Positions 37,609 through 55,406 of a stretch of 64,000 nucleotides of DNA are shown here, piece by piece. A program made the position numbers and the translations under genes. Position 1 is the stretch's first letter. Every line of letters starts with the position of its first letter. Origin of the DNA: Cryptosporangium aurantiacum. Its GTDB lineage: Bacteria > Actinomycetota > Actinomycetes > Mycobacteriales > Cryptosporangiaceae. The notes below the pieces were generated by a model that was not told the origin of the DNA, made no database searches, and worked only from the letters and a program-made list of their open reading frames with translations. The DNA is taken from positions 124,001-188,000 of the forward strand of contig NZ_FRCS01000014.1 in assembly GCF_900143005.1 (NCBI RefSeq). The letters are read 5' to 3'.

Positions 37609-37664
37609 GGGATCAGTCTCTCAACCGTGCCGTTGTGACGGGCGCATTCGGCGGCCCAGCCTTG

Positions 37665-37736
37665 CTGCGGGCGGAGGACTCGAACCTCCATCAACCGGTC
37701 CAGAGCCGGTCGTGCTGCCGATTGCACCAGCCCGCA
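37665..37736 (-). tRNA. tRNA-Gln (anticodon CTG)
   Basis: Read on the minus strand, acceptor TGCGGGC pairs with GCCCGCA. The anticodon stem ACCGG/CCGGT encloses the 7-base loop CTCTGGA with anticodon CUG, and the T-arm is GGAGG-TTCGAGT-CCTCC. The discriminator is G and no CCA is encoded. Confidence 0.95.
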
Positions 37737-49712: not shown

Positions 49713-51056
49713 TCAGGTCAGGACCGAAATCGCCTGTCCGGTGCGGGTGCTCCAAATCCGTGCAGTTCCGTCGGCGCTGCCGGTCACTAGTCTGTCACCG
49801 TCAGGGGACCAGGCTGCCGAGTTGACCTCTCCGGTGTGTCCCTCGAGGGTGACCGGGCCTTGCGTGTGATACCTAGTGAGCCAGATTTTGAGGGTATGTC
49901 CAGCGCAAACCGCTATTCGTTCTTCTCCTGGCGAGCGCACAATTTTCTGGATCGTACCTACGTCGCGGGACGCGATCGAGCCATTCTTCTTCGTATGGGG
50001 TGACCACCATGTCAGGTGACCCTGGTCGTCGCCGATATAGATCCGGCCGCTGTCCTCGGACCACTCGATTACGCAATTTCGAGAAAGCTTGGCGGTGCGT
50101 GTTCGGAGTGGGCGGTAGGAGGCTGCCACCCAGACCGCCACGCTTCCCGTGAAACAGCTCGCGGCGAGGTATTTCCCGTCCGGCGACCACGCCAGAGCCT
50201 TTACGAAGAACAAGTCATGACTGTCGAAGTGCCGCTCAGCCGTCCACGTTGCAGAGTCCCACACGACGATCCCGGCGTTGCCTCCAGTGGCGAGCCGGGT
50301 CCCATCCGGAGACCACGCGACGAACTGCACAGTGCTGGTGGGGCCAGCGATTGGGCCGTCCACGACGTGGCCGGAGAGGACATGCTCTATCGATCCGTTG
50401 TCATTCCTCCAGATCCTAGCGGTTCCATCGTCGCTTCCCGTGGCGATCCGGGAGCCGTCGTCCGACCATTCGACCGACCGCACAGCGTCGACATGCCCGC
50501 TGAGAGTGAACAGCATCTGTTTGGTGTCGGGTTGCCAGACAATGCAGTCTCCCCCACTGATTCCGGTCGCGATCCGCGCGCCATCCGGAGACCATGCGAC
50601 TGATTCGATCGTGGCCGCCCCGCTGGCGGCAGCGGGCAGTTCATCCGAAGTCTCCGTTACCGATCCAGCGGGTTTCGGCACGTGCGCTACCGCACCCAGT
50701 TGAGCGATCAGCCCTTGCGGGATAATTCCGCCGCGCGCATTCTCGATGTGTAATTCGCACAGAACGAGGGGTATAGCGCACTCAATTAACTGCAGCGGCA
50801 GTATCTTCTTATTCTTATCATCCGCATGCTTTATCTCTCGCCGTACCCATTTCGACTCCACAGCACTGGGGCTCAGGACGACCACGAGTGCGGCGCACGC
50901 GCCGATGCGTCTCTCGACGACGCGAGCCCAATCCTCTCCGACCCTTAACTCCCTGTCCCACCAGACATCGAAGCCGGCGGAGTTCAGAAATGCCGCCAAT
51001 CGCTCGACATAGGCCCGGTCGCGGGTACTATAACTCAAGAAGATCCGGTTCGTCAC
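49713..51056 (-). CDS. TIR-domain protein with a seven-blade WD40 propeller
   Basis: A 447-residue protein in two parts. The TIR domain covers residues about 3-125: IFLSYSTRDRAYVERL, FDVWWDRELRVGEDW, LVVVLSPSAVESKWVRREIKHA with the putative catalytic Glu, and ILPLQLIECAIPL. Seven WD40 repeats follow from about 150 to the end, each with the SPDG turn and a strand ending IW or VW (for example VAWSPDGARIATG, GSADGTARIW), enough for a closed propeller. Bacterial TIR domains commonly cleave NAD+ and act as suicide effectors, with the propeller as a sensor. The start is a GTG with GAGGAAAA before it. The TIR-coding part is visibly less GC-rich than its surroundings, a sign of transfer. A defence role is inferred. 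Confidence 0.9.
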   Translation of the reverse strand: MTNRIFLSYSTRDRAYVERLAAFLNSAGFDVWWDRELRVGEDWARVVERRIGACAALVVVLSPSAVESKWVRREIKHADDKNKKILPLQLIECAIPLVLCELHIENARGGIIPQGLIAQLGAVAHVPKPAGSVTETSDELPAAASGAATIESVAWSPDGARIATGISGGDCIVWQPDTKQMLFTLSGHVDAVRSVEWSDDGSRIATGSDDGTARIWRNDNGSIEHVLSGHVVDGPIAGPTSTVQFVAWSPDGTRLATGGNAGIVVWDSATWTAERHFDSHDLFFVKALAWSPDGKYLAASCFTGSVAVWVAASYRPLRTRTAKLSRNCVIEWSEDSGRIYIGDDQGHLTWWSPHTKKNGSIASRDVGTIQKIVRSPGEERIAVCAGHTLKIWLTRYHTQGPVTLEGHTGEVNSAAWSPDGDRLVTGSADGTARIWSTRTGQAISVLT

Positions 51057-51224
51057 CTTTTCCTCACTGCGCAGCGCCCGCTTTCTACTTCCGACGTCAT
51101 ACCGAGCATACGAAGGGGGCGCATAGCGTCGGGGCTAAATGCCCTCGGCCATGTCCTTGTGTCGGCTGGCTACCGTCGCGCCCGCGCGAGCGGGTGACGT
51201 ACCGGCCCGCAGTCGGTGGCAGAG

Positions 51225-54200
51225 TCAGACGGCGTCTGCCGCGGCATCGGCGTGGCGGCCGCTCACCGTGTTGGCCAAGGCAACGAGCACCTCGGGCGTC
51301 ACGTTGGCGATGCTGGCGAGCGGCAGTCGATGCCAGGTGCCTTGACTCAAACCCTCGGCAACATGTCTCCGAGCGCGATCGTGGTGTCCGACGCGGGCGG
51401 CCGTGCAGGCCAGCGAGAAGCAGAGCCGTGCCCGGCGGTCGATATTCGTGGTCGATTGCGCGAGCTCCTCCGCTTCGGTCATCAGCCGGATGGCCCGGCT
51501 CGAATCGCCGGCCCGGGCAATTTCGTCCGCTACCACGGTTAGCGCCCGAGCTCGCGAGGCCGGGCTCGTGATCGACCGCGCGATCTTCTCGCTCAGATCG
51601 GCATCACCACGTGTGGCCATCGTATGAATCAAGGTGCTGAGGGCATCTATCGCGGTGTCCAGCCCAGGGAGGTCATGCGTCAGCCGAACTGTCGTCTCTT
51701 GATCGTCGAGATGCGCTGCCGCGTTTGCCACCGTGAGCAAAGCCTCGGTTCGACTGTCGCGACCCGGAACAGCACGAGCAACTCGTTCCGCCTCCTGGAT
51801 GAGGCTGCGCGCGTACGTCCCGTCGGTAGCTGCTCGCGCCAATCCGCTGAGGGCCTTGGTACGGGCTACCGGATCGGTGACTGACCGCGCTACGCGCGCA
51901 GCGTTGGCGCGGTCGTCGAGCCGGGCGCTGGTCTCCGCCACGACGGCCAGCGCGTTCGATTGGGTGGTCGAATCGGCGGCGGACCACGCGGTCTGCTCCG
52001 CGTCGTGGGCGAGATCGGCGGCGTACGCCTCCTCGCCCGCATCGGCTGCCGCACATGCGGCCGCGCACAACGCGTTGACCTGGGACCAGGGGTTCGAGAT
52101 TGATCGTGCGACTCGAGTCGCGGCGACGTTGTCACCGGCGAAGGCCAGAGCCTCGGCCACCGCAACGAGTGTCACCGTCCGTGACTCGGACCCGGCCCCG
52201 CGCGCAGCCGAGGATTCGGCATCGCGGAGCAACGCCCGGCCCCAGTCCCGGTGGCCATTCTGTACCGCCGACTTGGCCACGGCAGCTAAGGCGACCGCTC
52301 GGGAATTCGGATCGGTGATGGACCGAGCGATTGTCTCGGCGAACCGGTGATCCCCGGTGCAGGCGATGGCGCCAGCCAGCACTTCGAGGTTTCGCGCATG
52401 CACATCGGCCAGCGAGATCGCTCGGGCGCTTCGTTCTGCGGCGATGGCCAGATCCATCGCGTGCGTGGTGTGGCCGCGCCGGACCGCCGTGCGCGCCAAT
52501 TCGGCAAGTGCGCCGGCTTTCCAGCCCGGTGCGGAAATCGACAGTGCGATTCTCTCCGCGCGCGTGGTATCGCCGACGAACGCGAATGCGGAAGCGGCAG
52601 CAGCCAGCTCGCGAGGCTGCCGGTGCTGATCGGCCTTCCTGGCGCATCGCTCCGCTTCCACGGCTAGCCGCTTTGCGCGCGCCTCGTCGCCCATGGCAGC
52701 CAGGGCGACTATGACAGCTTTGAGCGCTTGTGCCCGGCGGTTCAACGTCGGGTCGGTGAGCGCGAGTCGCTCGGCATCCGCAATGAGACGGCTGGCATAC
52801 CCGCGCTCACCGAGGTCGCTCAGTACCGTGGCGATGGATGTCAGACCGTGAATTTCGGCGTACACCCTCGTGATCGATCGGGCGATCCGTTCGGTCTCCT
52901 CGGCCAGCCGAAGGGCGTGCGCACGGTCGCCGAGGCAGCCCGCGACACCAGCGCACGCAGTGAGCAACCGGCTCTTGGAATCAGGCCGAGTGTCGGATCG
53001 AGCGATCTTCTCGGCCTCGGCAGCCAGGCACGTTGCGTCCTCATGGTTGCCGAGGCCTGCGCGGGTGCTCGCGAGTGCGGCGAGGGCTCGCGCGCGGAAG
53101 AACGGGTTGTAGTCGGTTCGAGCTACTGCTTCGGCCTCGGCCGTGAGGCGCAGGGCGAGCCCTCTGTGTCCAGTGCCCACGGACTCCGCCACGGCGACGA
53201 GGGCGTGCGCCTGCGATCCGGGGCTAGAAATCGTCCGAGCAATTCGCTCGGCGTACCGATGATCGCCCGCTCTGGCTACGACGCCCGTTAAGGCGACCAA
53301 TGCCCCCGCCTGTTGGCCGCGGTCCGTCATGGATCGCGCGATCTGCAATCCACGGTCGACGCTGCCCAGCATCGCCCAGACGGCGGGGAGCAATGCGGGC
53401 ATCCTTGTGTTCCGATCGTCGATGTTGGCCCGTTCGATCGCGAGCCGCGCCAGGAACTCCAGTTCCGGCCTCTCCTGAGCGAGGAGAGCATCCTGCGCGC
53501 CCGTGATCTCGGCCAGCGCGGCAGCGTCGCCGCCGGACAAGCTGAGCAGCAGATCATGGCGGGCCTGGTCCAGCGCGCACTCGACCGCCCGCGTCAACTC
53601 GCCGGTCGTCAGAAGGAGCTGGAAGTAGCCCCGCACGAGGTACTCGGGTGTCTCCGGCGGCCAGCCCCGGTCTCGGTACGTCTCTGCCCAGACGTGCAGC
53701 CGCTCGCGGTAGCCGGCGAGTCGTCGGGGACCGTAGTAGCGGGTGGCTTCCGTATGGATCTCTTCATGTCCGAGGAGGTAAACGGCTGGTCCTTCGTCGG
53801 GACGCCAGCGCGACGCCCGGCGGGAGAAACTCCTGCCCGCCACGGTAGAGAGCCGGCGTTCAATGTCCCACTCCGTGACATCGGACGCGTCGACTCCCGC
53901 GAGCGCGGGGTGAGGTGAAGCGCACAGCGCGGCGAGATCCGGACCTGACAGGCCACCTCCCGCAGCAGTCATGAAGCCGAGCAAGTCCTGCTCGATCGTG
54001 TTGCCGGCCCATAGCCTGTGCAGATCCGAGCGCATGCTCGCTCGCAACGTCTCGGCTCGCTCCGAGGGGTGAAGTGTCCGGACAATCGCTGGGTCATGTA
54101 AGGGATGCCCGGGCGGTACGTCCTCCGGGATCGGCGGGTTTGGCCGTCCGGCCACGACGACCCGCAGCGGTGCCGGCGGGTTCTTCGGAAGCAACGCGGC

Positions 54201-55172
54201 CACGCTGCGATCGTCGGGTCCGCCTGCCAATCCGCGATCCTCGTCCAGACCGTCCACGAGCAACACCAATTGCTGCCCGTCTCGAGTACAACGTTCGACG
54301 GCACGCCCGAGCAGCCAAGCGAATGACCGTTCACGCGCTGCCGGGGTCTGATTCGACGGCAGTAGTTCTCCGGCGACCTCGGCGAGTTGCTCGTTGACAG
54401 CCTCTACGAAAGCGGCGCGATCGCTGTTCCCCGGATACCGAGAGGTGATGAAAAACGAGACCACCCGGACGCCGGGCGGAGGGTTCAACGCGAACGTGGA
54501 CATCAGGGCGGACTTGCCTGCCCACGCCTCCGCGCGCCACCACAGATACGGTCGCGACGCCGCATCGGTGCAGAACGCGGCCATAGCTGCCAACTCCGCC
54601 TCCCGACCCAGCAGTATCGGAGGCGCGATCTGGCCAACCTGCGCCAGGTACGCGGAGCGGTGCGGATCGGAGACAGCTGGCGTGGCGGCGGGCTTTCCTG
54701 CGCCGGGAAAGCCCGGTTCAGCCAGCGGCTTGCTGCGCCGCTCGATCGCCGCCGCCACCGCTGTCAGCAAGCCGGTCCGCGCCTCGGTCTTGTCCCGGAA
54801 GCCGAAGAGATCCACATGGACGACTCCCGCCAGGAGTCCCTCGACCGTGCAGTTCTCGACCCGGATCGGGATCAGCCGTCCAGCCAGACCGGTCGGATCC
54901 TGTCGGTAGGCGGCGTGCCACTCGGCCGCGCCGAACGCGGAGTTCTCCAGGTATGCGCGCGACAGCACTGCCACCGTTCGCTCGGCGCGCTTGGTGCCAT
55001 GATCCATCAGGGCGATCCAATTGGATCCCGGCACCATGTCCCAAGCCTGGATCAGGACCGTATAGCCGGCCTCCTCCAACTGCCAGGCGATCCACGTCGC
55101 CCACTCGTGGTCGGCTTCCGTGTAGGACACGAAGAAGTCGCGACGCTCTCCGCTCAGGTCGGTCCCCGGCAT
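51225..55172 (-). CDS. TIR-STAND ATPase with a long helical repeat array (NLR-like)
   Basis: A 1315-residue protein. The TIR domain covers residues about 8-140 (DFFVSYTEADHEWATWIAWQ, WDMVPGSNW, VLSRAYLENSAFGAAEW with the candidate catalytic Glu). A STAND/NACHT-like ATPase covers about 185-520, with P-loop AWAGKSALM (Lys220), Walker B LVLLVDGLDEDRG near 306 and the VVVAGRPNPPIP sensor region. The C-terminal ~700 residues are degenerate TPR-like repeats of about 36-45 residues with a recurring A..IARSI..P.SRA.AL..VA theme. This layout matches bacterial NLR-like immune receptors: the repeats sense, the ATPase oligomerises, the TIR acts as effector. ATG 55172 has GGGAGG eight bases upstream; ATG 55178 is too close to it. 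The TIR-WD40 gene follows after 168 bases. Confidence 0.9.
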   Translation of the reverse strand: MPGTDLSGERRDFFVSYTEADHEWATWIAWQLEEAGYTVLIQAWDMVPGSNWIALMDHGTKRAERTVAVLSRAYLENSAFGAAEWHAAYRQDPTGLAGRLIPIRVENCTVEGLLAGVVHVDLFGFRDKTEARTGLLTAVAAAIERRSKPLAEPGFPGAGKPAATPAVSDPHRSAYLAQVGQIAPPILLGREAELAAMAAFCTDAASRPYLWWRAEAWAGKSALMSTFALNPPPGVRVVSFFITSRYPGNSDRAAFVEAVNEQLAEVAGELLPSNQTPAARERSFAWLLGRAVERCTRDGQQLVLLVDGLDEDRGLAGGPDDRSVAALLPKNPPAPLRVVVAGRPNPPIPEDVPPGHPLHDPAIVRTLHPSERAETLRASMRSDLHRLWAGNTIEQDLLGFMTAAGGGLSGPDLAALCASPHPALAGVDASDVTEWDIERRLSTVAGRSFSRRASRWRPDEGPAVYLLGHEEIHTEATRYYGPRRLAGYRERLHVWAETYRDRGWPPETPEYLVRGYFQLLLTTGELTRAVECALDQARHDLLLSLSGGDAAALAEITGAQDALLAQERPELEFLARLAIERANIDDRNTRMPALLPAVWAMLGSVDRGLQIARSMTDRGQQAGALVALTGVVARAGDHRYAERIARTISSPGSQAHALVAVAESVGTGHRGLALRLTAEAEAVARTDYNPFFRARALAALASTRAGLGNHEDATCLAAEAEKIARSDTRPDSKSRLLTACAGVAGCLGDRAHALRLAEETERIARSITRVYAEIHGLTSIATVLSDLGERGYASRLIADAERLALTDPTLNRRAQALKAVIVALAAMGDEARAKRLAVEAERCARKADQHRQPRELAAAASAFAFVGDTTRAERIALSISAPGWKAGALAELARTAVRRGHTTHAMDLAIAAERSARAISLADVHARNLEVLAGAIACTGDHRFAETIARSITDPNSRAVALAAVAKSAVQNGHRDWGRALLRDAESSAARGAGSESRTVTLVAVAEALAFAGDNVAATRVARSISNPWSQVNALCAAACAAADAGEEAYAADLAHDAEQTAWSAADSTTQSNALAVVAETSARLDDRANAARVARSVTDPVARTKALSGLARAATDGTYARSLIQEAERVARAVPGRDSRTEALLTVANAAAHLDDQETTVRLTHDLPGLDTAIDALSTLIHTMATRGDADLSEKIARSITSPASRARALTVVADEIARAGDSSRAIRLMTEAEELAQSTTNIDRRARLCFSLACTAARVGHHDRARRHVAEGLSQGTWHRLPLASIANVTPEVLVALANTVSGRHADAAADAV

Positions 55173-55220
55173 GGACATAGCCTCCCACCAAGCACACAGA
55201 CCGTGACAGACCCTTCACAG

Positions 55221-55254
55221 CACGAGGCCCGGAGCGGATGCTCCAGGCCTCGTG
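55221..55254. terminator. Strong hairpin between the 38-residue ORF and the TIR-STAND gene
   Basis: CACGAGGCC pairs with GGCCTCGTG and GGAGC with GCTCC around a 4-base GGAT loop, with one C-A mismatch: 14 pairs in all. There is no T-run on either strand. It stands 17 bases after the small ORF and about 50 bases before the TIR-STAND start, so it could terminate or attenuate transcription into that gene. Confidence 0.6.
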
Positions 55255-55270
55255 TGGTGCGGTACCTGCA

Positions 55271-55387
55271 CTAGTAGGAGTGCCAGCAGTCGTCGTAGCG
55301 CTCAGTGAGATGGCGACGACGGCGCGGCTTGTCGCAGTCGATGTAGTCCCAGCCGTTCCACCGGTCGTGGTCAGGGCAGCCGCTCAT
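55271..55387 (-). CDS. 38-residue Cys/Trp-rich small protein
   Basis: The ATG at 55387 is preceded by GGAGG at nine bases, giving MSGCPDHDRWNGWDYIDC and a further 20 residues with an RRRR cluster and a final DDCWHSY. Three Cys, three Trp, four Tyr/His-rich positions and no hydrophobic segment suggest a small metal-binding or disulfide peptide, or a modified-peptide precursor. No family is recognised. It is co-oriented with the TIR-STAND gene, about 100 bases upstream and separated from it by a hairpin. The good ribosome site is the main support. Confidence 0.5.
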   Translation of the reverse strand: MSGCPDHDRWNGWDYIDCDKPRRRRHLTERYDDCWHSY

Positions 55388-55406
55388 GTCGTCTAACCTC
55401 CGGAAG

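Follow-up and report, generated by a model that had tools for sequence, protein, structure and literature searches.

Two neighboring TIR genes of Cryptosporangium aurantiacum are probably separate immune-type receptors and not parts of one system

Introduction

Two genes for TIR domain proteins that lie side by side raise the question of whether their products act together as one defense system or are independent proteins that share a place in the genome. This question is posed by a stretch of 64,000 nucleotides from Cryptosporangium aurantiacum (contig NZ_FRCS01000014.1, positions 124,001 to 188,000 of the forward strand; here called the window), in which a gene for a TIR-STAND-TPR protein, with a STAND-type nucleoside triphosphatase (NTPase) and a tetratricopeptide repeat (TPR)-like array, is followed by a gene for a TIR-WD40 protein. 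A preliminary description of the locus suggested that one protein might sense and the other execute, or that both might respond to separate triggers. The analysis presented here fits better with separate triggers, and a sensor-executor pair is not supported. With a probability of roughly 60%, the genes encode two self-contained TIR receptor-effectors that became neighbors by accretion in accessory DNA. Both genes look real, each encoding an apparently complete immune-type protein, and their pairing is probably a local arrangement and not a new two-part system.

Two complete TIR proteins of different architecture

Both genes are located on the minus strand, the larger TIR-STAND-TPR gene (51225-55178; 1317 amino acids) upstream and the TIR-WD40 gene (49713-51056; 447 amino acids) downstream, so that the co-oriented pair with 168 bases in between (51057-51224) was correctly recognized beforehand. 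Both are uninterrupted open reading frames (ORFs), the upstream one with an ATG start and a GGGAGG ribosome site ahead of it and the downstream one with a GTG start and an AGGAAA-like site (both sites identified by eye). The end of the pair had been placed at 55172, which is the next in-frame ATG; the start called here is at 55178. The GC content is 60.9% for TIR-WD40 and 67.7% for TIR-STAND compared to 71.2% for the window, and the GC content at third codon positions (GC3) is 0.70 and 0.76, respectively, compared to 0.81-0.92 in the five neighboring genes measured. Therefore, both genes look foreign, TIR-WD40 more so, and the horizontal acquisition proposed earlier from the lower GC content agrees with these values and with the patchy distribution described below.

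The TIR-WD40 protein consists of a TIR domain (residues 1-125; Pfam TIR_2, 4.4e-23), a low-confidence linker (126-146) and a WD40 propeller (147-447; Pfam WD40, 1.7e-41), and neither Pfam nor the AlphaFold2 model revealed an NTPase. In this model (mean predicted local distance difference test score, pLDDT, 80.7) 28 strands extend across residues 150-446, which by our count form seven four-stranded blades, in agreement with the seven-bladed propeller of the preliminary description. The solved structure that best matches the model is 5yzv, a WD40 domain from a Thermomonospora protein. WD40-fused TIR domains are listed in domain databases.

The TIR-STAND-TPR protein comprises a TIR domain (residues ~13-135; Pfam TIR_2, 4.4e-32), a linker to residue ~175, a STAND NTPase (~176-540) and a TPR-like array that begins at ~512-540 and continues to the C-terminus. 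The helical array (51225..53561, minus strand) covers ~770 residues, whose sequence shows periodicities of 40, 73 and 33, and its DNA copies are diverged, at 63-74% to the reference copy (family D1). A recent amplification of blades or repeats was considered and rejected for the two genes, since the repeat copies reach only 63-86% to their reference. The AlphaFold2 model, which comprises residues 1-1190, shows the TIR domain, the NTPase and then paired helices from residue ~512 on (mean pLDDT 77.6, with a poor TIR part). In Foldseek the solved STAND-TPR structure 6mfv ranks second, which gives loose support as the TM-scores to the query are at most 0.17 among the matches listed. The NTPase is weak in Pfam (NPHP3_N at 1.1e-5, barely past the cut-off; AAA_16 at 0.0029, below it) and has a degenerate P-loop (AWAGKS at 218) and a plain Walker B motif (VLLVDGLDE at 305). 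The earlier reading as an NLR-like protein with P-loop and long helical repeats thus holds, with a degenerate P-loop and a ~770-residue array, and for a putative binding or hydrolysis of ATP the Walker B motif is conserved and the P-loop degenerate.

The assignment of the larger protein is provided by the PADLOC STAND_TPR profile, which matches residues 180-629 on profile positions 92-497 (E 8.1e-93) and is also matched by all six relatives that were PADLOC-scanned, chosen among 92 STAND loci. The protein shares with this family a homologous NTPase core and a C-terminal TPR-like array, as judged from the model to residue 1190 and from the periodicity. Moreover, its TIR domain (54774..55142, minus strand) carries, matched by eye, the pattern of Group 6 TIR domains (RDFFVSY; W15/W18; WDMVPG, fitting WDxVPG) within a large actinobacterial TIR-repeat protein. 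Group 6 TIR proteins are described as mainly actinobacterial, over 700 amino acids long and often combined with C-terminal TPRs (PMC7075850). The STAND_TPR core match together with the Group 6 pattern shows that proteins of this type already form a known class. The best explanation is that TIR-STAND-TPR represents, within the actinomycete NLR-like family STAND_TPR of PADLOC, the form in which the effector is fused.

The glutamate expected for cleavage of nicotinamide adenine dinucleotide (NAD+), earlier ascribed to both proteins, is present in both as a candidate. In TIR-WD40 this is E74 (codon 50835..50837, minus strand) within WVRRE, forming WxxxE with W70; it aligns to the glutamate of the three solved bacterial TIRs shown, and the NAD+ hydrolase AbTIR is also found in the match table of this TIR domain. 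In TIR-STAND it is E86 within FGAAE, with a phenylalanine where TIR-WD40 has the tryptophan. The position of E86 was read by eye from the TIR alignment of the family; the seed TIR alignment misplaces some gaps, so no count of glutamate conservation was drawn from it. The solved TIR matches of TIR-STAND are MyD88 and Toll-related, which makes activity at E86 less certain. NAD+ cleavage by either TIR may thus be proposed.

These features support the view that both are plausible TIR-effector immune proteins. In TIR-STAND the TPR-like array would bind a trigger, upon which the STAND NTPase would switch and oligomerize, and the clustered TIR domains might then cleave NAD+ or produce a nucleotide signal, halting the infected cell and thereby possibly contributing to phage defense. 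The propeller of TIR-WD40 may recognize a separate partner or trigger, and its TIR domain may become active when the protein clusters on this partner; the two proteins would not need to act jointly. That both genes are instead decaying or inactive passengers is suggested by the degenerate P-loop and by a Frankia relative whose TIR matches are spread over two reading frames. This is hardly credible given two fully open frames with plausible ribosome sites and a Walker B motif and P-loop WxGK shared without exception by all 13 aligned relatives; TIR-STAND is 39-58% identical to 12 relatives.

Recurrence of the gene pair in other genomes

The search for the gene pair in other genomes, which had been set beforehand as a test, spoke against a joint system. 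A TIR-WD40 neighbor of the STAND gene was found in none of the 80 named STAND_TPR loci and in none of 12 further STAND loci of 15-20 kb each, searches in which a strongly diverged copy could be missed; a conserved TIR-WD40 plus TIR-STAND pair was therefore rejected. The 80 loci are the best 80 of 283 relatives returned by a scan with a 13-sequence alignment (A1), after an initial scan of genome contigs had returned none. They are all from actinomycetes, stem from fewer than 80 genomes and are flanked on each side by 2 kb or more in 67 cases and by 5 kb or more in 59. The Micromonospora loci L039 and L076 are probably one locus counted in both sets, and the gene lists, obtained with a simple GC3-based caller, are approximate. 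Two of the 80 come near to the pair: L112 has a weakly WD40-matching neighbor with no TIR match and L127 a weakly TIR-matching neighbor (9e-4) with no WD40.

Within the family (five genomes including its own) the larger protein is matched at E<=1e-30 in four, best in a relative of the same genus (54% over residues 6-782; 59% over residues 6-628), and the 20 kb fetched around this TIR-STAND gene contain no TIR-WD40 gene. Residues 1-640 are matched at E<=1e-50 in 10 of 200 genomes of the order, including its own (six candidates each). Relatives of TIR-WD40 at E<=1e-40 were found in none of the four other family genomes and in none of 393 other genomes of a class sample (four candidates scored in each). 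These absences are weak where 4, <=6 or <=10 candidates per genome were scored. Both genes were recovered in the window by the same steps, a trivial control as the probes derive from the window. No report on such a pair was found in titles and abstract starts, a search that left subscription journals mostly outside.

Exchange of N-termini in the STAND_TPR family

The STAND_TPR proteins exchange N-termini, i.e., TIR, trypsin, HTH or short motifs. In the 12 further STAND loci Pfam identified TIR in three, Trypsin_2 in two and HTH_3 in one, and nothing in six. Among the 80 named loci a TIR match within the STAND frame occurs in two, both from Frankia; in one of these (L071:9446-12082) TIR matches fall in two reading frames and the gene is apparently broken. 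Short N-termini prevail, with at most 100 residues before the NTPase match in 51 of the 80 loci (stop-to-stop frame). Many of them carry glycine-rich motifs such as ANTGVHIGDV or VQIG..NTQ, and a simple pattern of our own fits 41 of 63 short N-termini. In sequence these resemble bacterial amyloid signaling motifs as presented in PMC8086366, a resemblance only.

At loci with short N-termini the 45 residues before the NTPase were compared with the ends of ORFs located at most 2.5 kb upstream. The motif at an upstream ORF end beats all 100 shuffles in 19 of 61 loci, and at most five shuffles reach the score in 27 of 61; an earlier, stricter test gave 6 of 62. Upstream ORFs with a near-end motif like that of the STAND N-terminus, reminiscent of amyloid pairs, were seen in L072, L084, L104, L109, L123, L135 and others, for example in L123 with VDARGARGVQIGSGNTQINVF and VDARDAKGVQIGDNNTQTNTF, identical at 15 of 21 positions. 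The 19 of 61 upstream matches indicate that two-gene designs exist in the STAND_TPR family, with a small upstream partner. For the linker of the window protein no motif partner was seen upstream, the real score being equaled or exceeded by 182 of 200 shuffles, and an amyloid-type (BASS-type) partner in the window was rejected on this count. Such a partner would be unnecessary because the TIR domain is fused in the window protein.

Comparison with known systems

STAND_TPR (PADLOC PDLC01173, "Predicted ATPase fused to Xre-HTH and TPR repeats", from Streptomyces) has the NTPase and the start of the array in common with the larger window protein, but carries an HTH at the N-terminus where the window protein has a TIR domain. 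The Group 6 TIR proteins share the TIR pattern, the long C-terminal repeats and the actinobacterial origin, whereas the Group 6 descriptions in PMC7075850 mention TPRs and not an NTPase as is present here. The bacterial TIR-NLR (PADLOC PDLC03015) is alike by analogy in its plan of TIR, NTPase and repeats; its connection to PDB 9m0n (824 amino acids, "Tetratricopeptide repeat protein") is our own suggestion. The STAND protein has no match to the PADLOC TIR-NLR model at E<=0.01, and the TIR domain of TIR-WD40 matches it weakly (0.001). For the amyloid-signaling bacterial NLRs with small neighboring effectors (BASS/Bell), as presented in PMC8086366, the likeness lies in the look-alike motif pairs of the STAND_TPR relatives, while in the window protein the TIR domain is fused and a motif partner is missing.

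For TIR-WD40, a TIR-nSTAND1-WD40 protein of the same genome (G000:C16:125675-129721; L050:5676-9722) is similar in having TIR and WD40, but it carries its own NTPase, which TIR-WD40 lacks. The Thoeris TIRs ThsB and ThcB show weak similarity to its TIR domain; ThcB4 reaches 40.7 bits for TIR-WD40 at a cut-off of 220, and no search aimed at ThsA was made.

Evidence for a partnership or for other functions

Several observations weigh against two independent immune receptors. Sixteen TIR_2 matches, by our count 15 proteins, are present in this 9.6-Mb genome, and random placement of 15 TIR proteins would give ~0.12 pairs within 6 kb, so that the adjacency of two TIR genes is unusual. The 168-nucleotide gap contains no detected terminator-like site, and its predicted RNA fold is no better than that of shuffles (z 0.00); with the common orientation, co-transcription would be permitted. 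In genome G002 (L038:8716-13282) two TIR genes are ~3 kb apart, with protease-like and NUDIX-like genes in between (named by eye), and here the nearest TIR relative of TIR-WD40, 53% identical to its TIR domain and fused to a DUF6879-like region, lies near a Group-6-like TIR; this pair has no WD40 or STAND match. Furthermore, PMC8195603 describes a pair of one STAND protein and one TIR protein joined via bDLD3 adaptors, and PMC10907252 a STAND target adjoining a peptidase with C-terminal WD40 repeats. These precedents make a partnership thinkable, although the systems described there contain domains of the adaptor or lectin type together with other effectors and are not the proteins of the window. 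With regard to catalysis, more than 70% of TIRs are reported to have the glutamate, the frequency of which need not track reported activity (PMC7075850). Finally, the surroundings, with genes judged by eye, are unlike a defense island.

A true two-gene system, in which TIR-STAND senses and oligomerizes and its TIR domains recruit or nucleate that of TIR-WD40, or in which the WD40 propeller brings the trigger, would accommodate the adjacency on one strand, the low GC content of both genes, the missing NTPase of TIR-WD40, the two-gene designs within the family, the G002 arrangement and the precedents. We consider it unlikely, as the pair is undetected in both sets of STAND loci and the genus relative has TIR-STAND without TIR-WD40. 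Moreover, the two TIR domains are of different types with scattered identity, the linker-to-linker similarity is low (score 24, calculated without a shuffle control), and the motif partners of the family sit upstream, not downstream as TIR-WD40 does. The specific form of a sensor-helper pair, in which a TIR-STAND oligomer would template the recruitment of TIR-WD40 by TIR-TIR contacts, is very unlikely; if true, it would be a bacterial counterpart of the plant sensor/helper receptor pairs, formed anew in this lineage by the combination of two modules.

Alternatively, the NLR-like proteins might serve programmed cell death, development or signaling of the host itself and not phage defense. The abundance of TIR_2 matches in this genome and the lack of a visible defense island are in line with this, as is the report of related conflict systems mainly from multicellular prokaryotes (PMC7159879), a source that itself proposes an anti-invader use for them. 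This explanation seems rather doubtful, as the patchy distribution and the low GC content fit better with defense cargo.

Genomic surroundings

Clusters of TIR-like genes were also seen elsewhere in the genus (L052, G000:C1:1478000-1497999; L151, G001:C1:565000-584999). By eye, both resemble the FxSxx peptide loci described in PMC7159879, each having one gene that is radical SAM-like and one of the MinD-like/repeat kind. In L152 (G002) two frames separated by ~5-7 kb give TIR matches, and none of its genes matches L052. We take the TIR clusters of the genus to mean that TIR genes tend to gather, with one hint for a partnership.

A neighboring SNF2-type helicase gene is present in all five family genomes. 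In the four relatives the stretch with this gene (20 kb each; 5 kb in G004) gave no other blastn match of at least 150 bases, leaving no clean empty site, and dating the insertion by this gene was therefore rejected. A tRNA-linked island was likewise rejected, the sole tRNA gene found being at 37664-37736. Upstream of the TIR-STAND start lies a hairpin of 15 bp with one G-U pair (55221..55254, minus strand); the 97-nucleotide stretch containing it shows a more stable predicted fold than 198 of 200 shuffles (z -3.02) and has no T run, and the upstream transcript may end there. A short ORF (55221-55400; ~38 amino acids from an internal ATG, MSGCPDHDRW...) precedes TIR-STAND, followed by this hairpin. 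At a distance, window positions 1440-25931 hold a single open frame of 8163 amino acids, by judgement nonribosomal peptide synthetase-like; genes resembling exporters and hydroxylases are close to it, and the region may be a cluster for a siderophore or a peptide.

Conclusion

Calling the two genes a new paired system would go beyond the evidence; the proteins extend a modular actinomycete NLR-like family. TIR-WD40, without an NTPase, raises the question of how a propeller alone could switch on a TIR domain. A more useful lead than the pair itself is offered by the STAND_TPR family, whose common NTPase-repeat core is joined in some members to a fused enzyme (TIR, trypsin) and in others to a short motif that has a counterpart in an upstream ORF. 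This alternation of fused and motif-paired effectors, with signaling by one protein or by two in a single family, can be tested and is relevant to the evolution of NLR signaling.

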